Assembly (NCBI GenBank): GCA_030247885.1
Contig: JAPDRO010000002.1
Span: 1,860,001 to 1,924,000, forward strand
Source of the DNA: Taxawa tesnikishii (nom. ined.)
Lineage: Eukaryota; Ascomycota; Dothideomycetes; Dothideales
Direction: 5' to 3'
Length of the DNA stretch: 64,000 bases
The notes beneath the pieces were generated by a model that saw only the letters and a program-made list of their open reading frames with translations, ran no database searches and was not told the origin of the DNA. The translations under genes were made by a program, and so were the position numbers. This document shows, piece by piece, positions 1 to 63,964 of this stretch (the first letter of the stretch is position 1; every line of letters begins with the position of its first letter).

Positions 1-1045
1 CGAGAAAGTGCTTTGGAAGATTTCGACAACTCCAGCTTTGGCTGCGCAGACGATGCAGACGGGGGCGTCGGAGGCTTAGACGGAACGAAAAGCCCGGCAG
101 AGCCGCTACGGAGGACTGGATAGGCATTAGACCAACCTGCGGTCGCGATCTGAGAAAAAAGTACCACGATAGCAGTATATAAGACCAAGTTTGGTACACC
201 AGAAGGCTCTGTTGCCCAGAAGGGGCCAATGAGTTGACCAAGCTGCGGTTCGACTATCAGACACAACCTGACATGGGAAGCTGACTGTACTCACCGCGGC
301 ACCCAACGGATTAGCAAGTGATGCAACGGCTGTGGCAGAGACCCTTCCTTTGTCAGTAAACCAAAGATCGCTATACCGCGTCGGTGCAGATAATACGAAA
401 GGCTGCGCAAAGCCACTTCCAGTGTCGTCAGCCAAAGTTCGACATGAAGTTTTCGGAAACACCTACATAAGGATTTGGGAAAACAAGACCGCTCCGTAGT
501 TGCCTCCGGCTATCCTAGTTCCAGCATAGCGAATCCAATTACCAACGAGAATCAGGACACTTGCGGCGAGGATGGCGGCCTTGGGTCCGCCCTTGTTCAA
601 CGTCCATATAACCAAGGGGCCACCAGAACGAAAGCGAACAAAAACCAGTACTGAGCCAATTGATGGCGCTTTCCGACACGCCGAAGTACTGCGCGCATGT
701 ACTTGATGAAGCAGCAAAAGTGAGCCACTGCGATTTTCAGCCTAACACCAGAGCAAAAGAAGCAATCCCACTCACGTCCCAGCTTACTGCGATGTTGAGC
801 AGTACCAGCTGGATCAGTCCGAACCAACGTCGTTTGTAGACTCGATATTCCACATGTTGAGTGGGCTGGTGTTGTTCATACACGGAAGCATCGAAACTCG
901 GACCAGCGGTGACGTGGCTGACGGTTGTCTGACCACCCTTGCTTTGCGGCTCTTCAATGTGCTCCATTTCTATATCCGTATGGTGTTGCGAAAGTAGTCG
1001 TTCTGCGCTGTGCTGCCGTGGAGCCTTCGGAGTGCCGATGGCCAT
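1..1045 (-). CDS. FLVCR-like major facilitator transporter (partial, 3' end outside window)
   Basis: The 5' part of a multi-pass MFS carrier; the rest lies beyond the left edge. The ATG is at 1045. Exons are 776-1045, 467-727, 295-415 and 242 downward, with introns of 48, 51 and 52 bp. The acidic N-tail is followed by the motif [11 protein letters not shown] at the first membrane helix, then helices ending in IWTLNKGG (the usual MFS loop 2-3) and [11 protein letters not shown]. This order matches fungal relatives of the animal FLVCR carriers; the substrate (heme, choline or other) cannot be told from sequence. Exon 2 needs one extra base at the A run 640-644 and one at the G run 616-619. With both, the exon phases agree. 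Whether another intron lies below about 170 is unclear. Confidence 0.8.
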
Positions 1046-1655
1046 CAGTTCAGAATGTCGCGCCGACCCTTTCCATCTATAACACTAGTATTCCTCTCAG
1101 TGGGGAGACGGCCTACGATATGGCTTATGTTCTACCACCAATGAAATGCTAGAGTTAATAAGCATACACGACGAAGGCAATAGAGCCAAGCTCAAGTAAC
1201 GCTCGATTGAAATTCAAATACGATAACCCCGCAGCCAGTCCAATATGTCGGTAGCAACCCACGAAGGTGTGTCTTCGGAGGACGGAGGAGGGAAGAGTTG
1301 CGACCGTTGGAGAGATCAACCCCTATCTTGAGCCCTAAGCCGACGGGCCGACCCTTGACGTGCAGCTGAAAGCGTGGGGTTTATGACGAGAAGCTCATGG
1401 AAGCCACACCGTAGAGGGTACCATGAACCTTCGATACATTCGCCTCCTCAGACGACATGCGCCTTCCACACCACATTTCCACAACTCTTCGGAATTTGCC
1501 CGTCGCTATGCCCTGCTGCTGCCTCGCGTCCTTGTAACCGAAACGTGGGACTACATCGCGAAGCTCTGAGCCGGACGATCACCTCGTGGCCTTGCCTCGC
1601 GTATCCCGCTTGAAATCTACCATCACCACTCTATTTTGGGGGCAGTTGTTTCACG
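1046..1655. promoter_or_regulatory. Divergent intergenic region, transporter and HUL5
   Basis: This 610 bp stretch separates two divergently transcribed genes and must hold both promoters. Short open frames here show no recognisable protein. I see no clear TATA box or repeated motif. Confidence 0.5.
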
Positions 1656-4600
1656 ATGTTTCAGTCTTTCACCGGCACGTCGCGGAAACCACGCCAGGTC
1701 AACCTCTCTGGACGCAAACCGAACCCATTTGCCGCTGCCGGTGGATCAGGCGGTCCTCAGCAGGCGGTGCTTAGCGCACATCAAGACCGTCAGCAAAGAC
1801 AGCAACAACGTGCGGAACTCAATGCTGCGAAGAACATCCAGAAGACATGGCGGGGATACAACTGCCGGAAGAGAGCTAGGGATGCGTGGAGACGGCAGTG
1901 GGATGCTACGGAAGAGCAGGCAAGGAATGCAAGGTTCTACAGGTCGGCCGAGGAGTCACTCGCTGCCCTGCGCAGACTACTTCTTTTCTTCAGCGTGCAT
2001 GAAGAGACGGACACAGAAAGGTTGATTCGGTATGGAAGACGGCAAGTGGAGACAGTGGCCGTGCAAGGGAACTGCTCGGGAAGCGCCTGGAATATAGAAT
2101 ACCTCCGTTTGGAGAGGGCATGCTTGGCAGCTTTGAGGGAGAGAGTCCGCACACGACAGGTGAGTAGGCGACGATTCTCACGTTTCTCATACCTGCTTCC
2201 GTTGCGAAGCCGTTGCAGACCTTCTGCTGATAACGTAACGTGGTTTTCTGACTTCTCGTATTTTAGAGCGGTGTGGATGATTTACTCCAAGTTCTGACGT
2301 TTTCAGTGGCGCAAACTGAAAGCGTGCCTACGGACTACTTCCAAACCATGGCCGATCTGGCTGAAGCGTTACAATCACCCTCGGAGATATATTACGCGGC
2401 TGTCACAGCACCGTTGAAATCAGAGAGCAACTACGCAGGATTTGCTGAATCCTACCTCACCTTCCCTCAGAATGAGGAGCATCTTGACAAAATTGCACCT
2501 CATCTAAACAGCGCTGCCCTTGTGCGAGCGACTGGACACGCTGCAGACCGGGTGGTATCAGACATCAGACGCAGTCTCTGGCTTCTTGGGCAGTTCCTCT
2601 ATGTTACAGAAATTTGCGGCAACACACAATCCGAGTCGAGTATCTGGCGCTTGACGAACATCCACATTGTCGCTACATTGATGGCTTCGGTTGCTGACGT
2701 TATTGCTGGATCGCCCGACTCCCCTCGGCTGAGTTGGGTAACCGCGACTACGACAAACAATATCTGTCCAAGTTCTCTACTCAGAGTGTCAGTATCACAC
2801 TGAACAGGTTTCTACAGCAGCAGTTCGTTCGCTTGGTAGACCAACAAGCTGTACGCTCATTGCTTGCATCGTCCCCGCAGAATGGCATAGGTGCAGATGC
2901 AGGAGGTCTGCTAGCTGGTTATGCCTTGACTCTGTTACGCGTCTTCCCTCGACGAGCCGATGATATTCGCATGTGGCTTTACCTTGGTCCGCCTGGAAGC
3001 GATGGAGCGCCAATAATCGCTTGGTTCTGGAAGAAAACAGAAGCTACTGAGGCATACCAGGCCATAAAGGACGAACCGAGGGCGGTGATAGATCTTCTCA
3101 AGCCAAAACGGGCATCAATGCCTGCGTGGCAACCTCCAAACGCAATACTACCAGGTTTCCAGCAGCGAGATGATCAATGGCGTGTAATCCTGGTTTTCTT
3201 AGAACTTTACACATTTGTGATCAAGCTCATGGACGATGAAGAGTTTCTCAGGGAGTCGAGAGGGACAGCACGTTTGAATCCCTTGGAGAAATCTCAAATC
3301 CGGGATCTTACCATCTTCCTAAAGAATATGGGCTTCACCATGTACTTCAACTCTACGGACATCACCAGTTTCGGGGATCTGGCTGGCATCAGTGTGGATT
3401 ACGTCAAAGGTTTGGTAACAGGTCTCTTGCGGTCGATATACGAGCGTGACTCTCGGCGGCATTTCCTTCCGAAGGGCCACTGGTTGATGACTTCGCGTCT
3501 TGATATGAGCAACTTCATTTCAGCCGTGGTTGCAGAAGAGGAAAGTCGGAAGCAACTACAAGACCAGGATGAAGACGACGATCAGATGGGGTCAGATTCG
3601 GATGAAGAGTGGTACGCTAGTGCGCACCGTACCACACGGGAAGCCCATATGCGAGAAAAACGATTACGGGCTCAGAGACACGCAAGCAAGAAGAGGTATT
3701 TGCAGTCCGTGGCACCAAGGTTGGAAATCCTCCAGAACATGCCTTTCTTCATTCCATTCGAGACCAGGGTCCAGATCTTCCGCGAGTTCATTCATCTCGA
3801 TCAGGAGAAACGCCGCAACGGTTACGTGGAACCAGACCTCTGGCGACAATCCATGATGTTTCAACGTGATGGCAGCGGTGAACGAGAACTGGCGCGTCAC
3901 CATGCTAAGATCAGGCGGAAGCATGAATTTGAAGATGCCCTGGAAGAATTTTATAGCCTTGGAGAAGCTTTGAAGGAGCCGATACAAATCACGTTTGTGG
4001 ACGAATTCGATATCGTTGAGGCCGGGATCGACGGTGGTGGTGTTACAAAGGAGTTTTTGACGAGCACCACAAGCCAAGCCTTTCATCCGGAGCGAGGCCT
4101 GTTTACCACAAACGAGAAGCATTTACTCTACCCGAATCCGACAATGGTAGAGGAGACGAAGGCGCTTTTCCACGGAAATCGCGAGGCCCTGGCAAGACTT
4201 GCGCAAGAATACGAGTTTGCCGGTCGGATCATCGGCAAATGCATGTATGAAGGCATTCTTGTCGACGTCACCTTCGCACCCTTCTTCCTCTTGAAGTGGG
4301 CTCTCACTGGTGGCGAAGGAGCCGCTTCCGGAGAGACAAGCTACCGTGCAAACATCAACGACTTGCGGGATCTGGACGAACAGCTTTATGCAGGGCTATT
4401 GTACATCAAGAACTATCCTGGCAACGTTGAAGAAGACTTCTCCCTCAACATGACCATCAACGACAATATTCCGTTGCCCGGAGGAGGAGAGAAGACTGTC
4501 GAGCGAGAGCTGATCCCCAACGGCGCCAACGTTCCCGTCACCAACGAGAATCGCCTCATTTATATCAGTCGCGTGGCTCGCTATCGCCTGCAAATGCAGT

Positions 4601-8628: not shown

Positions 8629-9014
8629 ATGGATGACTCCCCCTCGGACGGCTGCCTCTGGAGATTCGCACCATGATCTGGCGTTGTCTCGCGGAATCTA
8701 CTGAGGCATACGAAGACATCGACACCGCGTTCAAGCTCGATGCAGATCTATGTACCTTGGTTTCCCGATATCACGCGATAATGAGAACTTGCAAGCAAGC
8801 ACGGGAGGAATTCTTGCGTGTAAACTGGGGCGAAGCACTCGAGCCACACCATTGCTTCATAGTTGTCATAAGCGAAAGGAACGACCGGGGCTCGGGATCT
8901 AAGGTCTTGTTCGAGAATGGGAGTAGAAAAGACGCACGAGTCCATGAGAACGGCGGTGCTCTCGAGAAGCGGTCGGCAGCAATATCTGGCTACATATTCG
9001 CTGACGATTTTTGA
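8629..9014 (+). CDS. 2EXR/F-box-like hypothetical protein (doubtful, possibly broken)
   Basis: The segment RLPLEIRTMIWRCL followed by a conserved-looking helix (LVSRYHAIMRTCKQAR) resembles the opening of 2EXR-type proteins, which are abundant in filamentous ascomycetes and of unknown function. The ATG at 8629 is in frame with this motif only if the C run 8639-8643 had one more base; as written the frame is open from 8673. The reading frame stops at 9014 after a T run. Such proteins are usually longer, so the 3' part may be lost or also affected by a run-length error. I cannot tell a pseudogene from a sequencing fault. Confidence 0.4.
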
Positions 9015-13740: not shown

Positions 13741-14075
13741 CAAGGGGTCGTCGTGTTGTGATTCTGTTTCGCGTTGATACCCCGTTCTGCGTAGGCAGTC
13801 GATTGGTGTACATACTGCACTGCCTAATTGCCATACCATACCATACAATACAATACAGATTGCACTATACCGGACTAAGTGTAGCAAACTAGCAATATCT
13901 CCGATGAGCCGCTCTCGGATGCGATTCTAAGATCCGCCTTTGGCGTCGATCTCACATGTGAATCGGCCGGGAATCTCCATTGCATCGTCCAAGTCTCGCT
14001 GCCCCGTTAAACATTTGTTTCTCTAACGCTCTCCAACATGTGAACACACTAGGGAGTCGTTTCGACTATCTTTCA
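13741..14075. promoter_or_regulatory. Intergenic promoter of phytoene desaturase
   Basis: This 335 bp spacer lies between same-strand genes. It contains the short direct repeat CATACCATACCATACAATACAATAC near 13834-13857 written as five-base units, and a cluster of GATNC/CGATC words at 13923-13953. Confidence 0.5.
13923..13953. promoter_or_regulatory. Candidate light-response GATC cluster
   Basis: Three words, GATTC (13923), GATCC (13931) and CGATCTC (13947), fall within 31 bp about 125-150 bp upstream of the desaturase ATG. White Collar complexes bind paired GATNC/CGATN or GATC words in light-induced fungal promoters, and carotenoid genes are classic targets. The match is to short words and may be chance. 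Confidence 0.25.
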
Positions 14076-16221
14076 ATGGCGGAGAAGTCGGAGCAGAAGA
14101 CAGCAATCGTGATCGGTGAGTCGAGTCTCCTGCCGGAGTTGTGTGATGGGCATTGGAAGATGCGGCAACCGCTCGATCCATGCTACGAGAATCAGACGCG
14201 CGCACACACATATCTGAGGCAAGGAACGGCTCGGTCATGCTAACACGACGTGTCGCACAGGCGCCGGTGTCGGTGGTGTGTCTACCGCAGCACGGCTTGC
14301 GAAGGCGGGCTTCAAGGTCACAGTACTGGAGAAGAATGACTTCACCGGCGGACGATGCTCGTTAATACACCATGACGGATGGGTATGCGCCAGCCCCGTT
14401 CTTCTGCACACGAAGTGCAACAGTAGGACCGACCGTTGCTGACCCTGCCTTCTCCCCAGCGCTTCGACCAAGGCCCTTCACTCTTACTCCTTCCCCATCT
14501 CTTCCAAAGGACTTTCACCGAACTGGGCACGTCCCTCAAAGCGGAGGGAGTACACCTGCTGAAATGCGAGCCCAACTACAACATCTGGTTCGGCGATGGT
14601 GAGCTGTTCCGTCTCTCCACCGATCTGGCAGCCATGAAAGAGGAGGTTGAGAAATGGGAGGGCAAGGACGGTTTCTCACGCTACCTCGACTTCATGCGCG
14701 AATCGCACGAGCACTACGAGCTCTCGGTCACTCATGTCTTGCTCAAAAACTTTACGTCTATACTGTCTATGATGCGACCTAGTTTCCTACGACATTTGCT
14801 CACGCTGCATCCGTTTGAGAGCATATACTCGAGGGCGTCGAAGTATTTCTGGACCGAGAGGTTGAGGAGAGTGTTTACGTTCGGTAGCATGTATATGGGG
14901 ATGAGTCCGTTCGATGCGCCTGGAACGTACAGTTTATTGCAATACACGGAGCTAGCTGAGGGGATATGGTATCCTGTTGGAGGCTTCCATAAGGTAGGAC
15001 TGGACCCGTTTTGGAATGTCCCGACTTGACGTGTGCAGATGCTGATGCTTAGTAGGTGGTTGATGCACTGGTAGAACTGGGCAAGCGGTTAGGGGTGGAA
15101 TACCGACTTTCAACCCCGATCTCCAAGGTCACTCTCTCCGCAGACGGGTCTCGCGCCACCGGCGTCGTGCTCTCGGACGGCGAAACCATGACGGCAGATG
15201 TAGTAATTAACAACACCGACCTTGTCTACGCTTACAACAACCTCCTACCGAAAACAGCCTACGCAGAATCTCTCGCACAGCGACCTGCCTCCTGTAGCAG
15301 CATCTCCTTCTACTGGGCGCTAGACCGCAAAGTGCCGCAACTTGAGGCACACAATATCTTCCTAGCGGACGAGTACCGCGAAAGCTTCGACAGTATCTTC
15401 AAGAAACACCTGATCCCCAACGAACCGAGCTTCTACGTCAACGTACCTAGTCGGGTAGACGCCTCGGCCGCACCGGAAGGCAAAGAAACAGTGGTCGTGC
15501 TCGTGCCTGTCGGCCATCTCCTGGACACCGACACGGCAGGCTTCCCAGACCCTACCGCAGACATGTCCACGACGGCAAACGGCAAGTCCGCCGACGTTGC
15601 GGCCAAGCTGGGTGCAGCGAAGGGCTCCGGCATCGTGCCCACAACGCAACAAGACTGGCCACAGATGGTCGCTCTGGCACGCCGGACCATTCTCTCCACC
15701 ATCCAGGCGCGCACGGGCGTCGACCTCGGGCCTCTGATCGTGCACGAAGCATCGAACGACCCGTCAACGTGGCGCACCCGCTTCAACCTCGACAAAGGCG
15801 CCATCCTCGGCCTCTCACACTCTTTCTTCAACGTCCTCTCCTTCCGCCCGGCGACGCGGGCAAGGCGCGGTGGTTGGCTGGACGGCAAACTCGGCGGCGG
15901 CGTGCTGGGACGCGTCGGCGAGGTGCTGTCGAGTGGTGGCGATATCAAGGACCTGTACATGGTGGGCGCGAGCGCGCATCCCGGAACGGGCGTGCCGATC
16001 TGTCTCGCGGGCGGGAAGATGGTCGCGGAACAGGTCTGTATGGACCTGGGCGTGCACGTGCCTTGGACAGTGGGTGAGGGGAGAAGGTGGAGGCTGAGAA
16101 GAAGGGGTTGGGTAGGGATATCGATAGAGCGCGGAGTGGGCCGCTACTGGACTCTTTTCAGTATCTGGTGATTGCGCTTCTTGTCGCGCTGGTGGCGGCT
16201 TTGTTGATGCTGGTGAGGTGA
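14076..16221 (+). CDS. al-1: Phytoene desaturase
   Basis: Four exons (14076-14115, 14261-14382, 14460-14993, 15056-16221); introns 145, 77 and 62 bp. The FAD dinucleotide fold is at residues 11-40 (IVIGAGVGGVSTAARLAKAG, then EKNDFTGGR). The C-terminal CrtI signature GASAHPGTGVPICLAGGK lies near the end. It converts phytoene to lycopene or 3,4-didehydrolycopene in fungi. As written the frame ends at 16171 with an arginine-rich tail. One extra G in the run 16078-16081 instead gives a 620-residue protein ending in a hydrophobic segment (YLVIALLVALVAALLMLVR) at 16219-16221, the membrane tail expected for fungal al-1/carB. I therefore take 16221 as the true end. Confidence 0.95.
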
Positions 16222-23100: not shown

Positions 23101-25047
23101 TACTGGGGAGTCCGTGGGAGGTGGTGATACGACCCTTCTCGTCTCGGCGGAGATAGCCCCCATCTGTTCGCTAGTCGGACTCAATGCTCTCTCCGGGCGT
23201 GTCGGCTGCCGATTACCTGATGGACCGATCATTCTGGGCTGCTGAGGTACTGGGTCAGATGGTGGTTGCATCCCTGGGGCGCGTGGCAGACGCGAACTAC
23301 CATCTCTTGGATCGATTCCGCGGTTCGCGGGCGGTATGCTATTCTCTCGTATGCGTCGCGGTCCGTCAGTGGGCGAATCTCCATGTTCCCTCTGCTGCAA
23401 TTGTCGGGCTTGAGGTATGCCGGTCTTCTCGCCACCGCTTGGCCTCCTGTGGCCCTGTATGCGCTGGTCAGGTGGGGCCTGAGAGTGCGAGTCGACCGGA
23501 TAACGAATCTTGCTTGTGTCGAGAAAGTATATTAGACTGAGTTCGCTAGCGTCCCGTGGCGCCGAGCTTGGCTCTCCCCAAGCACGACGATATGTTTCCC
23601 GGAAGCGGTCATGCTGTGTCCGGACCGCGGAGATGGTGACGGGCCCATGTTCTGGAAGGTGTACCATCTCCTCGAAGATATCCGGAATGCAGCCAAGTCC
23701 CCGAGATCATTGCCTTCTTCTGTGCGGCCACCAAATACGTACATCACGTCGCCCACTAGTGCAGCTGCGTGACCCTCTCGAGCCGCCGGTATGTAGCCAA
23801 TGCACTCTAACTGCGTCCAGGAATTTGTTCGCGGGTCGTAAGACCAGACATCGTTGAACCATTGTACACCATCGGTGCCTCCGAATCTGCGATGCATTAG
23901 AAATCAGAATTCGCAAATACTCTGTGCAACTTACAGATAGAGCTTGTCATTCCAAGTCACCATAGAGTGGTTCGTACGTGCCGGTGGAATCTGTCCATGC
24001 GGAGGGCCTCCGTCAAACGTGTTTTGTATCAGTATTTCCCAGCGGTTGCTTGCTTGTTGGAGCGCATTCAGGTCGAAGGCAACAAGATCATTGAAAAAGA
24101 AGCCCTCTACCTGTCCACCGAAAATATAGATTTTGGATCCGAGGATATTGAGAGAGTGACCGTATCTTCCAGGTGGACGAGGACCAGCTGGGGCTGCCCG
24201 AGACCACTGTTTAGTTGCTTTGAGAGGGTCAGCCGTGTGCGATGTGTATGCTGCGAATTGTGCCTACAGGTATTCAGAAGATACAAGGTATCATCAAGCA
24301 TGTCGCTCTCTTCTGTTTTTGTGTCACCCCGAAGACAATAAATGCATTGCCAACAAGCAAACTCGCATGTCCGACTCTTGGTCCAGGACCTTCTGAAGTG
24401 GTCGCTACGGGATAGCAGTTTGGATTTTGGTGGGAAGCCTCCACCATCCACAGATCCCCTTTTACTGTAGAACCGTTGATCAGACCTCCCATAACATAAA
24501 CGGCACCATCTTTAGACGCGACTGAGTTTACAGCAGCGCCGTATCGAGGAAATGGATGTGTGCTGGGCGCTCCGGAGTCAAGGCGACGTTGCGACCAAGG
24601 ATACGGCGAGGAATCTGGAGGCGGCCTGGAAGGGGCGGGGGCCATACGACTGCCCTGTAATTGGTGTGTTAGTGTGCAATGTCCCACGCAATGCGACAGG
24701 CCTCTCGAGCCTAACAAACTCACATGTTGCTCGCTATCGCTCCGGGATCTCAGAACCTTCTGCTCCGGGCTTGGTGTGCTTGCAGTCTTCTCATCTGGGT
24801 ATGCGCCACTCTCATCTAAACTGCGCATAGAAATCTTCTCACCGAGGGAATTGAGCGAGTGGTTAACGCTGGCTCCCGGGGTCGGCGACGGCCCAGCAGG
24901 TGTCCTCGCATCTCTTGGACTAACGGCGCCGTTGAGTGTCGGTATCTGCGATCCTACGGCTGGACCATCGGCGGACCTGATGTTGCGTGTTGCTGCAGGC
25001 AATGCACTACCCTGCTGCTTCTTCGACGACTTAAACAAGAAAGACAT
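20110..25047 (-). CDS. tea1: Tea1-like kelch-repeat, coiled-coil cell polarity protein
   Basis: About 1,590 residues in four exons (24724-25047, 24268-24654, 23935-24217, 20110-23886; introns 69, 50 and 48 bp). A basic, serine-rich N-tail is followed by five or six kelch blades (RYGAAVNS..VYVMGG, RVGHASLLVGNAFIVFG, RYGHSLNILGSKIYIFGG, RTNHSMVTWNDKLYLFGG, REGHAAALVGDVMYVFGG, RSGHSMTASGKHIVVLGG). A long low-complexity linker leads to a coiled coil from about residue 750 to 1430, rich in E, Q, K and R heptads. The order kelch then coiled coil is that of fission yeast Tea1 and budding yeast Kel1/Kel2, which mark growing tips via microtubules and formin. The frame needs one extra base at the C runs 24327-24330 and 23576-23579; both fall in the glycine pair ending a blade. 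The C-terminus is an alanine run. Confidence 0.93.
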
Positions 25048-26513: not shown

Positions 26514-29500
26514 ATGCGCAAGACGACGAGGATAGGCTTCGAAGAAGCAACTGATCTTCCCAAAGCGAAGCACCCTCAGCCAGTCCTTGATCCCTTACCC
26601 ACCGATCTACGAGAAGGTGCCATCGCTCCGGACGTTGCGACCCGGCCTACCAGCGAATCCCGAGCCGACGGGATATACGAGACAAATGGCCATGCTGCCG
26701 ATAACGATTCCTCCGACACCATCGCCGAGAACGATGTTGTTGTTGAGCGTAGGAAACCGGCTATGCTCAGGGCAAGGAGCGACTTTGGTCCGCGACACCT
26801 ACGAGTGAACGGTCACAACGCACCCAAGGATGGAAAGGATGACAAGGGCGGCGAGGTAGCGAGCAAGCACACGATGCGGCACGGGTGGGAAGCGCAGCTC
26901 ATGTCGCCAGAGAAGGCGGATCTGCTATCTCAGGTCCGTACAAGGTCAACGTTGGAGCAAGATGAGGGTTAACACTCATACACATACAGACCTTCTACAT
27001 GTATTACATTGACAAGCGTCATGAGACGGCGGGCAACCCAAAGAATACCAAGGACTTCGAAATCCAGGAATGGCGTATGAAGGACAGACTGAAGACCGTG
27101 TCGGCCATCCTCGCTGTGTGCCTCAATATTGGCGTTGACCCTCCTGATGTCATCAAGACAAACCCGTGCGCCAAACTGGAGTGTTGGATAGACCCCTCCC
27201 AGCGGTGGCTGAAGGCCCGCCCGGATCTTCGGGCAGCGCAAATGCGCAGATTGCGAAGAACCTGCAGTCACAGTACGAGACCCTGAGCATGCGCGTTAGG
27301 TACAAAGCGCTCATGGATCCGAGTGTGGACGAGATGAAGAAATTCTGTACGTCACTCAGGAAACAGGCAAAAGAGGAGAGAGTGCTCTTTCACTACAACG
27401 GTCATGGCGTGCCGAAACCGACCAGTGCAGGAGAGATCTGGGTCTTCAACCGCTCCTATACCCAGTATATCCCGATATCTTTGTTTGACCTTCAGAGCTG
27501 GCTTGCCGCGCCCGGACTTTTCGTCTATGACTGCTCAGCAGCTGGCGGCATTATCACTACCTTTATGAGCTGCGCGAAGAAGCACGAAGCAGATCAGATA
27601 GCCGCCAAACAGAAGGATCCCCAGCTTCCCATGATCAACTGGACAGATGCTATACATCTCGCAGCTTGTCGAGACAACGAGACGTTGCCGACAAATCCGG
27701 ATTTACCGGCAGATGTTTTCACTTCGTGCTTAACAACGCCAATTGAGATGGCAATACGCTTTTTCATCCTGCAGAACCCTTTGCCAGGAGGGCCTACCCT
27801 TGAGGAAGGACGTAGGATTCCGGGCAAGATATCTGAGCGGCGGACACCATTGGGCGAGCTCAACTGGATATTCACTGCTATTACGGATACTATAGCCTGG
27901 ATGTCATTACCAAAACCGCTGTTCAAGAAGCTGTTCCGTCAGGATTTGATGGTGGCAGCTCTTTTCCGTAACTTCCTTCTTGCGCAGCGAATCATGCGTC
28001 CATATCACTGTCATCCTCAATGTTATCCGGAAATTCCCAGCACACACAACCATCCGTTGTGGGAGAGCTGGGATTATGCTGTCGAGATGATTCTAGCGCA
28101 ACTTCCCAGCCTCGTACAGCAAGCCAAGGAAGGCAAAGAACTGGAATATCAACATTCCGACTTTTTCGCTGACCAGCTCAGCGCCTTCGAAGTCTATTTG
28201 CAACAAGGAGCTGTGGAAAACAGCGTACCACAGCAACTTCCGATCGTGCTGCAGGTGCTTCTTAGTCAGGTTCACCGGCTTCGCGCGCTTATCCTGCTGG
28301 GTAAGTTCCTAGATCTCGGCCCATGGGCTGTCAACTTGGCACTGAGCATTGGGATATTTCCCTATGTTCTAAAGCTGTTACAGTCTCAGGCGATTGAACT
28401 GAAACCCGTCATGGTGTTTATCTGGGCTCGCATCCTGGCCATTGATCAGTCATGCCAAGGTGATCTTCTGAAGGACAACGGCTACCAATACTTTATCAGC
28501 ATCGTCAGTCCTCAGACGGGTATTCCTGTTGGCAATATGGCGGAACACCGGGCCATGTGCGCTTTCATTATTTCGATGTTTTGCAAAGACTTTCGGCCTG
28601 GTCAGAATGTCTGCCTGAATACCAATCCGGAACTCATTGACAGCTTACTCAGCCATCTCATGGATATGGAGAATCCGCTCCTCAGGCAGCACTCCTGTTT
28701 GTGCATAAGCATGCTGTGGGTTGACTTTCCAGAAGCGAAATGGATAGGCATACGATCTCAGGCACATCAAAAGTTGTGCGATCTGGTCATGGATCCAGTC
28801 CCCGAGGTCAGGACGGCGATGTTGCACGCCCTCACTAGCTTCCTGGGCATTCCTCATCTAACTGACCAAGTGGCTTATGTTGAAGAATCCGTTGCCTCAT
28901 GGGTACTTCCTATGGCGAATGACGGAAGCGGCATGGTTCGTAAGGAGCTCTTGGTGTTTTATTCGACGTTCGTTGTCCGATACAAAGACAAGTTCGTCGT
29001 TACTGCCTGGGAGCAGTTGAACGAGGAGAGGAACAACCAGCTCGATCAAGAGATGGAGCCACAACCTCCCATGAACGGCTATTTTGACCACAAGCGTAAT
29101 CCGTCAAATTCTGGGCCACTGTCGTCCGTCTCGAGAAGCACCGTCTTCCAAGCCATCTGGAAACAGATTCTCATCTTGACCGCAGATCCGCATGCTGAGG
29201 TCTCCAAGAGTGCAACCACTATTTTGGATTACGTATTGGCTACCTTGTTTGAATCACCGCTTGGCAATTTCGCCCACCAGACTTTGGACGAGATTATCAG
29301 TCACGAAAACAAGCCTCTGCATGCACATGTGGGTAGCTCAGATGGCTCGCTTAGACCGTCATTCGACTCGAATCGTGGCCCGCCATCACCAACACCTTCC
29401 AACAGCGGGAAGCACGACGGCTACCTCGCCGCAGGTCTGCGTCGAACTGCCAGCATGGCCGCGTCTATCAAGAGCCTTGCATCTTTCGCCACGCTCAAGC

Positions 29501-36222: not shown

Positions 36223-37892
36223 TCAACGCTTCTCGAACGCCTGGGGCGCGACAACGACCACGACGACCAGACTGGTGATGATGAGGGCCGCCGACAGGGC
36301 CGAGACGAGGATGATGCTCCCCGCGACGCCGGGAACTTGCCGCGGATCACGTAGTGCTGGCTCTCGAAGTATCGATGGAAGCCCAGGAGGAGGATCAGGA
36401 TCGCTTTTTCGACGTCTTTTCGTCAGTCGTCTGTACGGCATGTACCTTTGTCGAGAAGCACTCTCGGAAAGAGGGGTTTGGGAGGGAAGGAAGGGAGGAA
36501 GCAACAGAGGAGGGGGTGGGGGAGGAGGGGCGGGGTCGGGACTTACAAATTCCGAGGAACGTCGCTCCGAGCGGTTTGCCGACGTGTCGGAGCCGCGTCT
36601 GGTCGGCGAGAGGGGTTACGCTGGAATCTGTCCCGTCGGTGCTGCGGAGCGATGTGTTGAGCCGGAAGAGTTGTGTGACGGCTATGCCGATGGAGGCGAA
36701 GGAGAGGGATGTGCGGAGCCAGGCGAGGAACGTACGTTCTATACAGGGCAAGGTTAAGATTCAAGTTCGGTTTTTACGGGAGCAACGTGCGAGAGGGCTA
36801 AGAGGAAGAGGTGTTGACGGGGGTTGTTGGTTTTCGGAAAAGCTGGAAAGGCGTAAAAAGGTGCGGGTGCACAAGATAGAGACGTACCGAGCGCCAGATG
36901 ATCTCTCGCAACACTGCCTTTGTTCTCCAGTTCGACACTGCCGTACTTTTCCACTAGACTCCTCCACCAACTCTCACGCTCGTTTTCTTCCTCCTCTGCT
37001 CCATCCGAGCTCCTCGTCTGACTCCGTCTCCTGTCGACTCCAGTCGTTCCAACACCAGCACCAGCACCAGCACCCGTTCTCCTACCCTCTCCCGCCCCTT
37101 TGGAGAAGCTGCTTTTCCTCCTCCTCTGCACAGGGCTGAGATCCCCACTCGTCCTGCGCGGTCCTTCTTCCTCGGCTGCACCATCGTACTCGTCCAATCC
37201 GGCGTCCTCGGTTCTCGAGGTCGTGGTTGAGCCGTAGCCGGCCAGGCTCCGTCGGAAGATGGCCGTGTTTTCGTCCGCGCTGCTCTCGGCTTCTCTCTCC
37301 TCGCTCACGCGGCCGTTCCGCGGTGACGCCGTGGGCGATCCCCGCGAGCGTGCCATTAGGTAGCTCCCCACCCGCTCCGGGCGAGGGCTGGACTGCGTGC
37401 TGGGGTGGAAGGTTACGCTGCGTTGGCGCGAAGGCACGGCAGATGTCGCTGCGGCCGAGAAGCTGGATCGGTTGCTGTTGTCCTTGTCTTTGGGACGGTC
37501 GGGGCTCTTGGGCGATTGAGCAGCCGACTTGGACGATTCCTGGAGTGAGCCGGAGCTGCTTTTCCCGGCTAATGGGAGTGGAGGATGGCCTTCTGTTTCT
37601 GTTCTCTCGGCCGTGTCCTGCTTACTGCTCGTAGGGGGTCGGCTTGCTTGATGCTGCCACCAGGGCTTTCGTCTGCCGAAGTAGAGGTATCTACATGGGG
37701 GATCTGTCTATCGCTAGACCAACGATGGAAGGCAGGGAGTGGGGTAGAAAGCTTGTCGATCGTGCGTTCAGAGGCGGCAGCAGGGCCGGGGCGTGGTGTG
37801 ATCAGGGAATCCTCAGAGTCCGAGCCGTCGCACCCTTGGGAATGCGTATCTTCCCCTGCAGAATTGGAAACGGGAGAGCAGGGGAGCGGCAT
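36223..37892 (-). CDS. DUF202 membrane protein with long disordered N-terminus
   Basis: About 459 residues in three exons (36888-37892, 36547-36738, 36223-36403; introns 149 and 143 bp). The first ~300 residues are low-complexity (Ser, Arg, Glu, a GAGAGAG run). The last ~150 are a DUF202 (PF02656, YidH-like) domain: [20 protein letters not shown] with a helix, then [19 protein letters not shown], then a terminal helix [19 protein letters not shown]. The core element RTFLAWLRT is rebuilt by splicing across 36738/36888. Similar domains occur in VTC polyphosphate proteins, but no SPX or VTC catalytic part is seen here. Two missing bases are inferred, at the G run 37634-37638 and the C run 36319-36322. 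With them the start at 37892 and the stop are in one frame. Confidence 0.85.
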
Positions 37893-40696: not shown

Positions 40697-42794
40697 ATGG
40701 AAGCTTTAGAGCAATGGTTCAAGGACAACGGAGGGTATTTGCACCCCTCCGTCCATCTTGCCCGCGATGAAGAGCATGGTGTGCACTTCCGCGCTTTTGC
40801 CTCGTTGGGTCCGGGAACGCACATTCTGACCGTGCCGCATCATCTTGCGTTGTCCAACTTGAACGCGCAGGTAGATGACGCTTTTACGGTCTTTAAGTCA
40901 AAGGCAAACTCGTTTACCGTGGAAGCGTTGAGCTTCTTCTATTTGATGGCTCAATGGCTGAACAAGGAGAAGTCGTTCTGGAAACCGTACCTCGAAGTGC
41001 TGCCGAGTCCTGAAGAGGGTTATGGTACGCCGTTCTGGTTCGGAGATGATGATTTGCTGTGGTTGGAAGGCACCGATCTTGCTCCGAGTTTTGTTGGAAG
41101 GAGGGACATCTGGCAGAGGTATTGGAGAGAAGGTGTACGAGTTCTGAAAGAAGCCGGTACGGACACTAGCGGATATACATGGTAAGTCAATGCATTTTCG
41201 ACTATTATTTCGGTGAGAAAAGCATCATAGATCACGCGAACCTAGCCGTGAGGTTTTATAACGGTGAGCCCTTTCTACTTATGCCAAAGGAAAGAAGCCA
41301 AACCGGTCGAGCACTTCTGTTCGAATGAACAGTACATATCTATTGCTGAGTTCTGGAGAAGCACGCTGACGTCGCGACAAGGGAACTATTCAAGTGGGCC
41401 GCCACTGTCTTCACTTCCCGTAGTTTCAACGGGAACGCCATCCGTCCACAAGACAGCAGATATTGGCCCGCTTACAAGCATGGTCCGCAAGGCCGACAAA
41501 CCGTCTTGCTTGATTTGTCTCATGCACCAGAGGATCGAAAAACATTCTCTGTGCTCTTTCCACTTATGGATATAGGAAACCACAACCCAATCGCCAAGGT
41601 GGACTGGACTTACGATCCTGGGCGCTTTAGCCTGACCGTTCAAGACGAGATTGCCAAAGGAGAACAGGTCTTCAACAACTACGGACCCAAAGGCAATGAT
41701 GAGCTACTGATGGGCTATGGGTTTTGCATCACGGACAATCCTCACGATTGTGTGCATCTAGCCATGAGACAGCCTCAGCCCGGATTGCAAGAGATGCTAC
41801 GAACCAGCCGTCTGGGATACTTCAAGACTTCCGGAGAATGGAACACTGAAGCCGCGACATTCAAGCTTGTACGCTCCCAGGTGTTGCAAGCAGTATCGCA
41901 AGAGAGTACTCCATCTCAAATATGGGATGCCATCCCCGTACCTCTTGCGGAATTCTTCTGCTACAACGTCCAGCTGGAGCGGGGCCATACTATCTTGCCG
42001 ATTGGAGATCCACAACAGTACCTCTATCACGGCTGGGGTAGACGCTTGCTTCCACGCATGGCGTATCATATGCTGATGGCTCTCGTGCCCAAGACCACCA
42101 AATTGGCACAATCGACGACTACACTGCCGTCCACTCCACAGAACCCAAGACAAGCCAACGCCAAGATCTATCGCGACGGTCAGTACGAGATCCTGGACGC
42201 CGTGCAAACTAGCCTGGCTCGGTTTGTCAAGTCCCTGCGGCCTGCAGAGGGTCCTGTGCCTGGCCCCGCTGTGTGGAAACTAGAAGAGGTATTTGACGTC
42301 TGGAAAGCCGAATCGCCTGATTTGCACAAGTCATTTACGGCGGGGATGAAGAAATTCTTGGGCACGAGCAAGCTGAGCAAGCTGCCGGATACCGATCAGG
42401 AGGAGCAAGTCTGGGTTCTCTGGCTTTGCTTTCTCGTCTTGAATTCTGAACCGGCTGCCGCTGAATCGGACACGTCTGACGTTAGTGGCACGGTACGCAA
42501 GTGGCAAGTCAGCCTTGAAGCAGAGTACGGAGATCCGAGAACGGGCCTGGCCGGGGCGGGGAGAGTGACGAAGAGGAAGATGAAGAGGATGAGCAAGCAG
42601 CGTTCTACAAGAGTTGTGTCAGAAGAGCGGCTATGTTCCTCCCTGGATCTGTTTGGACGAAGCCTGGGTGGAGTACCGATCTGATCTTGGACTGGGGTGT
42701 CAAAATAATGAACTCTCAAGGCACGCTGATGAGATTTGATGAAGGTGGCGTGGAGGATGTGCGATACGTCCTGTATCTGCACGTTGATGAATGA
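40697..42794 (+). CDS. SET-domain protein lysine methyltransferase (Rubisco-LSMT/SETD family)
   Basis: About 632 residues. Exons are 40697-41181 and 41382-42794; the 200 bp intron may hide a small extra exon. The split SET domain shows EEHGVHFRAFASLGPGTHIL (start), FPLMDIGNHNPIAKVDW (NHxP motif) and VFNNYGPKGNDELLMGYGF (AdoMet/substrate site). A helical region like the Rubs-subs-binding domain follows. Known relatives (yeast Rkm1-4, SETD3, SETD6) methylate ribosomal proteins, actin or transcription factors in the cytosol or nucleus; the substrate here is unknown. As written the frame ends at 42684. One more G in the run 42558-42561 gives an acidic stretch (ESDEEEDEEDEQ) and a conserved-looking end (FYKSCVRRAAMFLPG) to the stop at 42794. 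Confidence 0.9.
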
Positions 42795-46507: not shown

Positions 46508-49092
46508 ATGCGCTTTACCACCCAGTTGCTGGCCGTCGGGCTGGCGCTCATCGAGTTCACCTCCGGCCAAGCTCTCACCACCGCCGAGCTGGCCAACCTC
46601 GAGCACTACTGGTCCTATGGGAGGTCGGCACCAGTCTACCCTACTCCCCAGACCTCTGGGCTCGGTGAGTGGTCTACGGCTTACGCAAAGGCGAAGCAGT
46701 TGGTCGCCCAAATGACCAACTACGAGAAGAACAACATCACCTACGGCCAAACCTCTACGACTGGTTGCTCTGGTGTGTCCGGAACTGTACCAAGACTTGG
46801 GTTCCCAGGCCTTTGTCTGCAAGATTCCGGCAATGGTGTGCGCGGAACGGACGGTGTCAACGGTTACCCCTCTGGTGTTCATGTCGGTGCTTCTTGGAAT
46901 GAAGACCTGGCCTACGATCGCGCGCTGGTAGGTCTTACTAGTCGACCACAAAAAGTGACTATGGACTGATGTGTCTGCAGTACATGGGCGCCGAATTCAA
47001 GAACAAGGGTGTCAGTGTCGCTCTTGGTCCTGTAGTAGGCCCTCTTGGCAAGGTTGCCAAGGGCGGACGTAACTGGGAGGGCTTCAGCAACGACCCCTAC
47101 TTGAGTGGTAGGCTCGTTTACGAGACTGTGCAGGTGAGTTTGTCCCGCAGCAAACTGCGGAGACTGTGACTCAATGGCTAACGCCTTGCTGCAGGGATTG
47201 GAGAAGAATGTGATGTCTTGTGTCAAGCACTTCATCGGCAATGAGCAAGAGACCAACCGTATCCCACCTGCTCTGATCAGGGGCGCGCAAAACCAGTCTC
47301 TTTCGTCCAACATTGATCCAAAGACGGAGCACGAGCTTTACCTGTGGCCCTTCCAGGACGCAATCAAGGCCGGTGCGGGATCCGTCATGTGCAGCTACAA
47401 CCGCTACAACAACTCCTACGGCTGCCAGAACAGTTACAGCATGAACGGCTTGCTAAAGGGCGAGCTTGGTTTCCAAGGATTTGTTGTTTCTGACTGGGGC
47501 GCTCAGCGCACCGGTGAGGCTAGTGCCAACTCCGGTCTGGACATGGCCATGCCTGGCAGCACTTACTGGCAAAACGGAAACCTCAGTCAAGCTGTCACCA
47601 ACGGCACGGTTGCTCAGTCCCGCCTTGACGACATGGCTACTCGCATCATTGCCACCTGGTACCGCCTTGAGGAACTGAACAGCCCGGCCTTCGAGAATCC
47701 TGGCTTCGGTCTGCCCGCCAGTCTTCTGACCCCTCACACCTTGGTAGATGCCCGCGACCCAGCTTCCGAAGACACGATCTTCCAGAGCGCAGTTGAGGGT
47801 CACGTGCTGGTCAAAAACGTCGGTAACACCCTGCCACTCAAGAAGCCCAAGTTCCTGTCTCTGTTCGGTTACGATGCCGTTGCCGCTACACGTAACACGC
47901 CTACCGCTGGTACCAAGTGGAGTTTCGGTCTTGAGAACACGCAAGTTTACCCTAACGGCACATTCTTTAACGACACTTTCCTCTTGGCAACCTTCCTCTC
48001 TAGCGAGCCTGCCGGCACCACCGGTCCAGGTGTCGCTCTCAACGGTACCATGATCACAGGCGGTGGATCTGGCTCCGTGACTCCAGCGTACATTGACGCA
48101 CCCTTCGACGCGTTCCAGCGCCAGGCTTTCCAGGACAAAACCCTTCTTGAATGGAACTTTGCCGACTTGAACGTCACCGTCAACCGAGCGAGCGAGCACT
48201 GCATTGTGTTCATCAACTCGCAAGCTTCCGAGGGTTGGGATAGGCCAGACCTCGCGGATCCCGGTTCTGACGGGCTCGTCGAGATTGTGGCTTCGCAGTG
48301 CAACAGTACTATTGTTGTCCTGCACCATGCTGGCATTCGTCTTGTCGACCGCTGGATTGAAAATCCTAACATTACCGCTGTCATCTACGGTCACCTTCCA
48401 GGCCAAGACAGCGGCCGTGCCCTGATCGAGGTCATGTACGGCAACCAATCCCCATCCGGCCGCATGCCCTACACTGTGGCCAAGAACGAGTCCGACTACG
48501 GCCACCTCCTCAACCCAGTCCTTCCAGTTGGCACCGAGTACTACACGCAAGATAACTTTACTGAAGGCGTCTACATCGACTACAAGCACTTCATCGCACA
48601 AAACATCACTCCTCGCTACGAATTTGGTTTCGGGTATGTGTTCTAACAAGACCAGCATAGTAAGAACGGATACTAACGAATATCCTAGTCTGACCTACAC
48701 CACCTTCAACTACTCCTCCATCCAGGTCTCGCGCAGTAACCACGTCAACACCCAGTACCTGGCCCCCAACACCACCCTCGCCGAGGGCGGCTTGAGCTCT
48801 CTGGGAAACCATCGCCACCGTCTCCTTCAGCGTGCAGAACACGGGCAGTGTCGCTGCCGCCGAAGTGCCTCAGCTGTACGTCGGGATCCCCGGCGGGCCG
48901 CAGAAGGTGCTTCGCGGCTTCGGCAAGCAGACGCTGAAGCCAGGCCAGCAGGGCAACTTCTCCTTCGACCTCAACAGGCGCGATCTGTCTACTTGGACGG
49001 CGCAGGGTTGGGCACTGCAGAAGGGCACGTACCAGCTCTATGTCGGAAAGAGTGTGCTGGATATTCAATTGACGTGCTCGCTTACTATCTGA
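46508..49092 (+). CDS. Secreted GH3 beta-glucosidase
   Basis: About 805 residues in four exons (46508-46927, 46981-47133, 47195-48633, 48689-49092; introns 53, 61 and 55 bp; the last has TACTAAC). Signal peptide [20 protein letters not shown]. The GH3 N-domain shows [32 protein letters not shown] and the nucleophile Asp291 in [11 protein letters not shown]. The C-domain has [15 protein letters not shown] and a closing fibronectin-III-like domain ([19 protein letters not shown]). Many N-glycosylation sites support secretion. It releases glucose from cello-oligosaccharides or other beta-glucosides. Near 48797-48802 the (CT)3 run seems to lack one CT unit; with it [18 protein letters not shown] reads on to the stop. 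Codon use is strongly C-biased. Confidence 0.95.
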
Positions 49093-57818: not shown

Positions 57819-58018
57819 TGTGCGGAAATGCAGGGTCGGGCGACTCTAGAGGGAGCGGAAGCGCTATCGAAAGACTGCGGGCGGGAGCCTGCAAAGATCG
57901 ACGTTCCCAGTGTCGGCCGGTGCGATACGCTCGGACGGCTGGTGTGGCCGTCGGTGCTGTGCCTCGTCACTCGAGATGATCTGCGAAGCACAACTATCGT
58001 CGATATCACGTGGGATGG

Positions 58019-58059
<41 letters not shown>

Positions 58060-60720: not shown

Positions 60721-61858
60721 GGTGATAGGTGTTGGAATTTGGGTAATTAAGTAGGGTTCTATCGATGCTGTTCGTTGGTTGGGGGTTGACGGAGATACAT
60801 GCAAGTACCAAGAGGAACTCACTTACTTGGAAGGTGTTGGTGTGTGGTATTCGTACTAGTGTGTGGAAGGTTGTGACTGTGTGTACGTGTTACGTTGGGT
60901 TGTAGGAAAGGGTCGGGGCTACAAGAACAGTACGTATATATATATAACCCCTTCCACATGAAGACTGTCCGGCCACGCATGCTCTTAGAAGGGCATACGG
61001 GCAAGGTCTTACGTCAAACTAGCAGCACCTTTCACCGAAGAAAAAAAGGCCACTGGTGTATGACGGACACAGTCATACCTGCTGTACTCCAGACTCCGCT
61101 CGAAAACCGTGGAGGATACTGCAGCATGTGTTGTGGTTGTTCAGAGGGGTTATCATATATCACATGTCCCCATTTGCAGCGAGCAAGCAAGCATTTGACC
61201 CCTCTGCTTGTTTGGTTGCCTGAACTGGAAGGAGGTGTTTGCTAGTTTGCTAGTTCAAGCTGCTTGCTTGAGCTTACCTGGCGGCACCTGCTCGTTGGTC
61301 ACCCTGAAGCAGAATAGGAAACACGACAGGAAAGTGAATAGGTGGCACGATGAGGCATTACAGGTCACCACATCATCAAGCCGGATTCGTGAACGCACAC
61401 GACAGACGCGGACAGCAGTCTTCTGCAACACGTATCCGATCTTCTTAGCCGTGGGTCAGGTCACGTACAGGAAGTTCTGCCACGTTAACTCTCACCACCT
61501 CCGCTGATGCGAGTAAGCAGGAGATATATACGGCCTTCCTCTTGCTTCTCTTCTTGTCTCAACAAGCTGAAGACAATGAACCGGACGACAGCTGTTCTAC
61601 AGTAGAAAAACGGTGACAGTGGCCTGATCGATTGTATCAGCGTCTAAGCTAGTCCTCAAACAGGTCAAACGGAAGTAGAGAATCATGTACCTTGTAGGCG
61701 AGCTTGACGCACCTGACAAAGTCGTGTTCGGAGTAAACGCTGAACAGGCTAGGTACGGTGCACGCGCAATATATCACAGGCATTGTAAACATCATCATAT
61801 TGCTCCCGCCTTGCTGTATAGGTCGGGCTCAGCCAGCGTACCGGCCAGCAGGACGTCC
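60721..61858. other. Intergenic
   Basis: 1.1 kb without a supported gene. It includes a TATATATATA word near 60935, about 215 bp upstream of the small gene. Confidence 0.45.
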
Positions 61859-63964
61859 CTATCCTGCATGGAAAGCCCCCGGTCGCAGCCGGCCAAACAC
61901 GTCCTCAGGATCCCACCTTGTCTTCACCCCTCTCAGCCTCTCCATAATTCCCTCATCCGCTCCGTAAGGACCATCCTCACTGCTGTCGAACGGATCCTGC
62001 CACCTCGCAGCATAGTTCGGATATACCCAAGGGTGCACCCAGCCTTCGTTGAGTTGCACATACATCTCGTCTCCCATGGCTCGCATGTATGATGCCATCA
62101 TATTGTCTTTTCGAGGATCCGTCCAGCGGAGTTCGACGGATAAGAGAATTAGTGGGCCGTCTGAGGGTTCTAGGGTGAAGATGTTGCTGCTTGCGCGGAG
62201 ATGTGGGACGGTGATAGGCTGGAAGGTTATTCCCAGAGTACTGTTTGCGTCGAAAAAGGGAGGGTCGGTGGTGTTGGTGGCGGAGCTCAGCCAGATTTGG
62301 AAGATCGTGTAGATTCGGTGCATGGCGGGAAAGGAGTTCTTGATGGTCAAAGTGAATTTCTGTACGCTTGGAGAAGGACGGGTTAGCCATACGACTGTAC
62401 GAGGAGTTTGTGCGATCCGACAAGTGATGGAAGGGACATGCAATCGGCGTCTCACCGAAACCCGGGCACATTGCCTTCATTAATGTCCTCCGCACTGGTG
62501 CTCATATTCATCATCCGCAAGTTGCTGTACGTGTGCGGTATACCGGTCCATCGTCTTGTCAACTTCCCGTTCGCCTTGCCGCGGTTGTTGATCAAGTACG
62601 CTACGAACGTGGATCTCTTCCACTCCTCGATCCAGGCGAAGGACAGATATCCGGTGGTCTCAACCTCCTCCTCAGCCCTAGCGTTCTGCGCCTCAAGCGC
62701 GTGTAGCAGGTCCGGCACCTGCTGTTCCTCATACCCGATCGCACCACCCCAAACCCCAGTCGGCGCAAGTCGAATTGCAGGCACCTTGATCTTCGTCACA
62801 ATGCCAAATGCACCCAAACTCCCCTTCAGCGCCCAAAACAAATCAGCATTCTGCGCAGCGTTGGCCCGTACGATCCCCCAGCTCTTTCGGCGCCCACACT
62901 AGCACCTGCATCAGCATCGGGACATGCGGTCACAACTTCGAACTCGACCACACTATCACATGTCCACCCGTACTCGTTCGCAAACCATGACATCCCGCCT
63001 CCGAGTACATATCCACCGACGCCGACGTCCGCAACCCGCCCGCCAGAGACTGTGAGAGGGGGTCATACGCTTCCAGCGCGCGGTAGACATCGCCCCAGCG
63101 CGCTCCTGTGGAAACCCATACCTCGCTGCCATCGCCAGTAATCTGGGTGACGTTCATCAGGGAGAGATCGAATGTGATGCTTTCTGTTCTCGTCAATGGC
63201 TTCGGCCGAGACCCCGCGCCTTGAATTGTATCCTGGTTTTCGACCCTGGACTGATGAGAAGAAGCGCCACCTTGGCATCCGTGATGGCATCCGGCGTTGG
63301 AGGCGCCGGTGACGGACGAGTGACCGCCAGAACGTATTGCAAAGGTAGTATTGGTGGCGACGATGACGCGGAGGCCGAGATGCGTTTCGTCGGTGGAAGA
63401 AGGGAGGAAGAGGCATGTGGGATGGAGTTCGCTCTGTTGGGCGGACCAGTATGTGGATTGCTGACGTAGGTAGGTTGGAGAGGTGGGATAGTAGACACTG
63501 TGTGGGAGGATGTGTGATAGATACCCACACTGGGGTGGAGTGCGTTAGCGGTCAGTCACTAATCTTCAGGGTGTTCTCATCAGCACAGCACGGCGAGCCA
63601 TGACGTGCTGTATTAATGTAGACGACCATACTTAGAGCCCATAGCGAACAATAAAAAGGTCAAGTAAGGTAACCTTAACGGTCCGATGAGCAACTGTGCA
63701 GTGACCGGACTGCAGACTAGATGACGAATAGAATGCTGCCATGGGTTGTACTGTACTATCCTCAGGGCGCAGTGTGGACATTGAAAACCGAAGGAAATTT
63801 TGCCTTTGATACGAAAGATGGATTGTTCAAAGACTGCAATGTAGAGTGAGAATACTCACCGCTGAACCCCCTTCCGGCGTGCTCACGCTTATCTGAGGGA
63901 CATCGTCCAGAGCTATGGCCCCCGCGAAGAGACCAATAGAAACAGCTACACCGTAGCGGATCAT
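61859..63964 (-). CDS. Secreted FAD-linked oxidase, BBE family
   Basis: About 562 residues in three exons (63860-63964, 62456-63529, 61859-62366; introns 330 and 89 bp). Signal peptide VAVSIGLFAGAIA. FAD-binding domain: SVYYPTSPTYL, STYWSAQQSELHPTC, then IRSGGHSSVTGASN with the histidine that usually carries covalent FAD, and VGVGGYVLGGGMSWFANEYG. The berberine-bridge C-terminal part ends WVYPNYAARWQDPF and RLRGVKTRWDPEDVFGRL. Relatives oxidise sugars or secondary metabolites. The residues after GASNAGCHHG are longer than usual and may hide an intron. Two missing bases are inferred, at the C runs 63035-63037 and 62875-62879; with both, all exon phases fit. Confidence 0.88.

Follow-up and report, generated by a model that had tools for sequence, protein, structure and literature searches.

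The window analysed here, a stretch of 64,000 nucleotides of the ascomycete Taxawa tesnikishii (nom. ined.), carries genes for raptor, a HECT ubiquitin ligase, a kelch-repeat protein, a GH3 beta-glucosidase, an opsin, MCU and a P450, besides others listed in Table 1. An earlier note had proposed that many of these reading frames change at short runs by the loss of one base, and the runs that it named are indeed found in the sequence. Each site was scored by a codon model whose training data excluded the window, with 90 nt taken per side and in-frame stops left unpenalised. On the whole, the -1 relation belonging to a one-base loss is top-scoring at 15 of the 17 coordinates, and its lead over an unchanged frame is greater than 5 nats at 14 of the 17 claimed sites vs 25 of 773 control runs, which have a length of at least 4 and come from single-frame decoder stretches away from calls, with a resulting bias toward no change. 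The site at 2734-2735, suspected as a further one, also favours the -1 relation (5.5 vs -2.4), and four-base runs of G or C, said to be the usual form, occur at 8 of the 15 homopolymer sites. The frame change claimed at 8639-8643 is not upheld, there being no coding piece in the region and scores of 0.3 for a deletion vs 0.8 for none. The (CT)3 repeat said to lack a unit falls into the +1/-2 class with a score of 17.6 vs 4.0 for none. Together with two P450 joints of the same class it makes the statement that the change is always a deletion an overstatement, although the strong deletion bias behind that statement is confirmed. The opsin and MCU genes are decoded without repair, as had been described. 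For the P450 gene of the window, a GT-AG intron of 54 nt, identified by eye, accounts for the frame; a candidate reading of this P450 as broken, with its heme motif in another frame, was rejected on the same intron.

Table 1. Runs and frame relations in the window; runs of genes on the minus strand are given on the gene strand, and paired values are codon-model scores.
Gene or stretch	Run	Position	Strand	Frame relation
Weakly coding stretch	GGGG + AAAAA	616..644	+	-1 best, low scores
HECT ubiquitin-ligase gene	CCCC inside	2709..2735	+	-1 class; decoder deletion 2709
No gene found; claimed site, unsupported	run of five	8639..8643	-	
Amino-oxidase-type gene, near end	GGGG	16078..16081	+	-1 class; 1.5 vs -4.5, codon statistics only
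Kelch-repeat gene	GGGG	23576..23579	-	-1 class; weak, -2.3 vs -3.1
Same kelch-repeat gene	GGGG	24327..24330	-	-1 class; -9.0 vs -15.1
Raptor (KOG1/Mip1) gene	CCCC	27193..27196	+	-1 class; 6.2 vs -5.8
Enoyl-CoA hydratase-like gene	AAA	32388..32390	-	-1 class; 8.3 vs 0.6
Same enoyl-CoA hydratase-like gene	CCCC	32688..32691	-	-1 class; 10.2 vs 4.6
DUF2985 gene	GGG	35466..35468	+	-1 class 12.3 vs 3.7 none; +1 class 10.6
DUF202 gene	GGGG	36319..36322	-	-1 class; 14.8 vs 6.3
Same DUF202 gene	CCCCC	37634..37638	-	-1 class; -0.7 vs -9.5
Gene with sub-threshold SET match (E=0.038), near end	GGGG	42558..42561	+	-1 class; 9.7 vs 4.0
GH3 beta-glucosidase gene	(CT)3	48797..48802	+	+1/-2 class; decoder insertion 48804
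FAD-binding (berberine-bridge-like) gene	GGGGG	62875..62879	-	-1 class; 4.8 vs -14.5 none
Same FAD-binding gene	GGG	63035..63037	-	-1 class; 3.7 vs -5.1

Homology bears on several of these sites. At the raptor break the left frame matches Raptor_N profile positions 2-39 and the right frame positions 44-151, while chain 6zpn aligns with residues 222-290 on the left and from 297 onwards on the right; by our own arithmetic 20-23 surplus bases remain, and therefore there is no space for an intron. The piece after this break extends over 1180 codons and matches 6zpn with E=0. In the FAD-binding gene, FAD_binding_4 28-84 ends in one frame and 97-131 starts in the other at 63035-63037, with 38 bases between the blocks where 39 are expected, so that homology spans the change and leaves no room for an intron; a Pfam search with the piece downstream of the other run of this gene gave no match. 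The match to the kelch profile PF24681 stops at profile position 220 of 221 near 23577, on the run itself, past which the other frame is open for 3463 nt, and we take the gene to be Tea1-like. In the new frame after its second run stands DTKTEESDMLDDTLYLLNT, presumably kelch-like residues to judge by the motif, and the piece beyond this run has no Pfam match. In the enoyl-CoA hydratase-like gene, ECH_1 42-130 begins near 32685 and lies in the new frame, the decoder placing a deletion at 32701 and the second change at 32425. GH3 structures align from 48799 in the new frame, with an Fn3-like domain further downstream, and the piece upstream of 48797 has no clear structure match. The HECT domain lies downstream of its frame change, while the Amino_oxidase match (E=4.4e-5), the DUF2985 domain and the DUF202 domain lie upstream of 16078, 35466 and 36319 respectively; the amino-oxidase-type gene we assume from its neighbourhood to be a phytoene desaturase. 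No Pfam family is matched by the stretch with 616-619 and 640-644.

Several window sites have the support of codon statistics alone, and the decoder at its working penalty calls just 4 of the 17. When introns are allowed, it accounts for several sites by introns. This is what would be seen if ordinary short introns had simply been missed in the earlier reading. However, the family pairs examined form two groups, one with a surplus of at least 38 nt (many 48-63) and one of ten joints with -7 to 5 nt, and at the two window sites where homology was measured in addition to these ten joints, the raptor and FAD genes, the surplus is that given above for raptor and -1 for FAD. Actually, the decoder itself invents one intron across the raptor break and another across the MLH1 break, in line with the false introns predicted by the earlier note, and such introns would remove raptor and MLH1 residues that are aligned with known structures. 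Short introns are thus highly unlikely as the general explanation.

Conserved genes are broken elsewhere in the genome as well. Among the ten joints of Pfam pieces with small surplus, which belong to P450, CCT and HSP70 genes, eight are of class -1 and two of class +1; one of the broken CCT frames lies at about 528262 of contig C1. Each of the eight class -1 joints has a run of four or more bases somewhere within the 71-141 nt inspected around it, the chance reference being a 60-nt window, which holds such a run in 35% of cases. One class -1 joint, in the C33 P450, spans 33 unaligned model positions and may conceal an intron. Joints between repeat domains (FF in L007, HMA in L019) were left out of the counts because their adjacency is ambiguous. 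In addition, our own arithmetic gives a one-base deficit twice in PTPA and once each in ribosomal S10 and ARMT1, both sides being verified by Pfam, and a one-base deficit in MLH1, whose frame is broken at AAAAA (L028, 1738-1742) with the same signature as the other breaks. Raptor, CCT, HSP70 and PTPA, all of which should be essential, are hit as well as the P450 and FAD genes.

The polarity of the breaks was then taken from a frame decoder. A first version with loose intron rules hid most breaks in long introns of poor quality and was replaced, splice tables being learned from its 134 introns of at most 85 nt and the penalties then tightened. In 264 kb at equal penalty there are 26 deletions vs 1 insertion (p = 4e-7), spike-ins being recovered with nearly equal sensitivity (deletions 48/83, insertions 37/65); a further insertion call comes from an extra locus, L023. 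Deletions outnumber insertions at all five penalties (45/9 at -7, 31/3 at -9, 26/1 at -10, 13/1 at -12 and 4/1 at -15), the number of calls depending strongly on the penalty. The deletion calls are shown to concentrate near runs of at least 4, with 14 of 26 at most 10 nt away (null 14%) and 22 of 26 at most 30 nt away (null 35%). Of the deletion calls, 22 lie outside the window; their 39 distinct pieces were compared with Pfam. Four of these joints are confirmed from both sides, and the other 18 have one side, repeats or no family. With stop read-through allowed at the same penalty, 0 stops are used vs 26 deletions, at a stop sensitivity of 10/37. Pseudogene decay, to which broken frames would be natural, has to face this absence of stops, as far as that sensitivity reaches, as well as the nearly single indel polarity and the long conserved frames past the breaks, such as that of raptor, and we give it almost no chance. 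The 26 calls fall in about 125 kb that the decoder took as coding; with a sensitivity of about 58%, this gives a rough estimate of a break every 3 kb of coding sequence and, by extrapolation, of the order of 5000 breaks in the 29.4 Mb genome, figures which depend on the penalty.

The run-length spectrum is cut off at long runs. Long ORFs have 1 C/G run of at least 6 vs 43.1 expected and 7 A/T runs vs 32.1 expected from a synonymous-codon shuffle, while three stretches of E. coli K-12, a bacterial and not a fungal control, have 7 vs 17.7 for C/G and 90 vs 104.5 for A/T. A simple Markov expectation was dropped because the model was trained on the same sequence. For five-base runs the ratio in the E. 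coli control is 0.5 for G5 and 1.11 for C5, and in its first 50 kb alone both looked depleted; since G5 is scarce in E. coli too, depletion at five is weak proof, and we rely on runs of at least 6. Restoration of the proteins by programmed ribosomal frameshifting or transcriptional slippage would fit the location of the breaks at runs, but it would have to act in many unrelated genes, on different bases and even at runs of only three to four bases, and it leaves the scarcity of long runs unexplained, so that its probability is practically negligible.

The runs might also be truly contracted, slippage having accumulated in a strain without mismatch repair; the MLH1 frame itself has a break at a run of A, and hypermutator fungi with run indels are known (PMC5614558). 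In MSH2-defective Cryptococcus deuterogattii, whose MSH2 lesion was confirmed by Sanger sequencing, indels are concentrated in homopolymer runs as they are here. However, those are real mutations, comprising both additions and deletions and affecting longer runs, about 24% of run mutations being at nine-base runs, unlike the 26 vs 1 found in our analysis, where the breaks are mostly at runs shown as four or five and long runs are near-absent, not variable. Moreover, the examined portion of MSH2 has an uninterrupted frame of 761 codons, raptor, CCT, HSP70 and PTPA are broken along with MLH1, and the estimated density of breaks seems incompatible with life. Mismatch-repair loss is therefore very unlikely, even as the least improbable of the alternatives, and slightly less probable still is a genuine mutator in which MLH1 is broken, runs are contracted wholesale and the products are rescued by slippage.

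The deletion bias, the position at runs, the cut-off spectrum, the breaks in conserved and presumably essential genes across the genome and the lack of called stops support the under-called homopolymers put forward in the earlier note, and given these an assembly artefact fits better than decay, introns or recoding. With a probability of about 0.93, we attribute the frame breaks to under-called homopolymers in an assembly of long reads that was not sufficiently polished with short reads, while the cellular DNA would carry the longer runs. The sequencing technology was most likely nanopore-like. Noisy single-molecule reads of this kind with inadequate short-read correction would give a consensus in which runs are shortened, above all G/C runs of at least 5 and A/T runs of at least 6, usually by one, and each exon base lost would flip the reading frame, so that intact genes would seem to be split or cut short, or to carry false introns. 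In nanopore-only assemblies of Drechmeria coniospora (PMC7500977), run-length errors likewise break the frames of conserved genes despite high contiguity, and genes with improbably short introns may still pass completeness checks; after polishing, however, insertions exceed deletions there, whereas deletions dominate here. The Homopolish paper (PMC8011154), based mostly on bacterial data with known truth, describes systematic nanopore indels in homopolymers, with deletions leading after some polishing chains, as here. One isolate after Racon and Medaka has 7891 deletions vs 1114 insertions, another data set after the same treatment has 704 insertions vs 324 deletions, and in unpolished drafts insertions dominate. 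Given the insertion excess in the polished data of PMC7500977 and the unpolished data of PMC8011154, polarity alone is not diagnostic of nanopore reads.

If the shorter runs were real, the organism would be a remarkable mutator. Under homopolymer under-calling, gene sets from this assembly likely include many genes that are split, cut short or given false introns, and any gene losses, pseudogenes or new introns reported from it deserve distrust until the run lengths are verified.

Frame changes were placed with a decoder that models coding frames on both strands together with introns, charges the same penalty for a missing base as for an extra one, and was trained with each locus left out in turn. 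Over the window and 20 stretches taken at round coordinates (264 kb in total), its calls at the working penalty of -10 come to 26 deletions and 1 insertion (binomial p = 4e-7); the counts shift with the penalty, with deletions ahead at all five penalties tried. Sensitivity to the two classes is equal, spiked-in deletions being recovered with the right sign in 48 of 83 cases and insertions in 37 of 65. Read-through of stops, for which sensitivity was 10 of 37, was permitted at the same price and used 0 times. The commonest intron length is 50-59 nt (69 of 216 introns), and in eight loci fetched around repair-gene matches the calls are two deletions and one insertion. The deletion calls concentrate near runs of at least four bases: 14 of 26 lie within 10 nt of one, against 14% expected (p = 2e-6). 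At a distance of up to 30 nt the figure is 22 of the 26, against 35% (p = 2e-7).

The window, 64 kb long, belongs to contig C12; the assembly has 34 contigs and 29,367,862 bases in all. The source is probably an ascomycete-type fungus, judging by the intron lengths, by the carotenoid-type cluster with its opsin, and by a raptor gene that matches 6zpn best. In the window the earlier note had listed 17 sites, most of them single-base runs shortened by one base, together with a (CT)3 short of a unit and a tentative site at 2734-2735, and the runs do lie where it placed them. Each site was scored on the gene strand over 90 nt on either side, by a codon model whose training set excluded the window, for no change, one base missing, and one extra (or two missing). 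The relation with a single base missing scores highest at 15 of the 17 sites, and at 14 its lead over no change is larger than 5 nats. Control runs of at least four bases were taken from coding sequence at a distance from decoder calls; 25 of 773 reach this margin and 597 prefer no change, these controls being drawn from stretches already decoded in one frame and thus biased toward no change. At the working penalty the decoder recovers just four of the 17 (near 2734, 32388, 32688 and 48797), because it explains the others by introns or shortened genes. The note had also predicted false introns, and the decoder itself bridges the breaks in raptor and MLH1 with an invented intron each.

The top structure match of the raptor gene is 6zpn. 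One frame follows the Raptor_N profile as far as position 39 and the other takes it up at 44, and the Raptor-like chain 6zpn is matched over residues 222-290 and then from 297 onward. By arithmetic from these matches the surplus is 20-23 bases, too few for an intron, and leaves a remainder of 2 modulo 3, which means one base missing. Apart from the raptor, FAD-binding, beta-glucosidase and hydratase genes, the listed sites are judged on codon statistics, to which a family on one side is added in some cases.

Sites and features in the window and elsewhere in the assembly
Feature	Position	Observation
Weakly coding stretch	616, 640	basis of both sites is this stretch
Listed run	8639	shortening unsupported by codon-model scoring
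Predicted gene without Pfam family	10713	extra decoder deletion call at gene start, absent from the earlier list
Carotenoid-type cluster	11716-19020	lycopene cyclase (match below cut-off), phytoene synthase (SQS_PSY), amino-oxidase-type gene and rhodopsin-type opsin, mutually adjacent; known fungal car clusters have the same genes side by side
Kelch gene	23576	profile ends at the run; score margin small
Raptor (KOG1/Mip1)	27193-27196	one base missing
Hydratase	32688	ECH profile starts immediately past the run
GH3 beta-glucosidase	48797-48802	frame change upheld, as one extra or two missing rather than one missing; C-terminal part matches GH3 structures from 48799 onward in a new frame; no structure clearly matched by the piece upstream
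FAD-binding gene	63035-63037	FAD_binding_4 stops at 84 and restarts at 97 in the next frame; 38 bases present, 39 expected
MLH1	L028:1738-1742	one base short at AAAAA
Further upstream of this	L028:2593	another decoder deletion call
PTPA	L004:2394-2720	two one-base-missing changes about 300 nt apart
P450 joint, contig C29	23912-23935	no intron room; sole nearby run TTTT, some way upstream

Joints between pieces of one gene were also collected by searching the entire genome in six frames with models for P450, CCT and HSP70. The paired pieces fall into two groups, one with an intron-sized surplus (at least 38 nt) and the other made up of ten joints whose surplus lies between -7 and 5. Eight of the ten are one base short. 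The least certain of these, on contig C33, leaves 33 model positions unaligned across the joint. In each of the eight, the surrounding 71-141 nt contain a run of four or more bases. The remaining two read as one base extra; one is located on CCCCC then GGGG, where two separate losses would give this reading, while the P450 joint on contig C29 does not fit the one-base-loss pattern simply. Outside the window, deletion calls with families matched on both sides are found in PTPA (twice), a ribosomal S10 and ARMT1, and arithmetic from the tables shows each of the four to lack one base; having been found through deletion calls, they have no independent bearing on polarity.

Long runs are depleted. 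In the 264 kb there are no C runs of six or more and six such G runs. Compared with a synonymous-codon shuffle, long ORFs hold 1 C/G run of at least six against 43.1 expected, and 7 A/T runs against 32.1; the same procedure on three E. coli K-12 stretches gives 7 against 17.7 and 90 against 104.5, a comparison that is supporting evidence only, since E. coli is not a fungus. Five-base G runs are scarce in part for natural reasons. Isolated long runs (A12, G9, G11, G13, T9, T11) persist in the sample while runs of six to eight are scarce.

We consider it highly probable (about 0.93) that homopolymer runs are under-called in the consensus, as an assembly artefact, and this would be a single cause behind nearly all the observations. 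Such under-calling is well known for nanopore-only assemblies. In PMC7500977, less than one sixth of a set of 305 conserved genes came out full length in the initial assemblies, and about one fifth of the examined single-exon genes still carried errors once long reads had been used for polishing. Its authors also note that improbably short introns can make an assembly look falsely complete. In that study insertions outnumbered deletions after polishing, whereas deletions dominate here. PMC8011154 describes insertions as dominant in drafts before polishing, and deletions as dominant once certain polishing chains have been applied.

Among biological alternatives, only a mismatch-repair mutator deserves mention, because MLH1 is broken in the assembly. 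Against it, genes that we presume to be essential have breaks in similar positions. Moreover, the known mutator example shows both additions and deletions, and nine-base runs account for about 24% of its run mutations (PMC5614558). Under-calling in the consensus is preferred, and the broken assembled MLH1 could mislead one into calling this strain a mutator.
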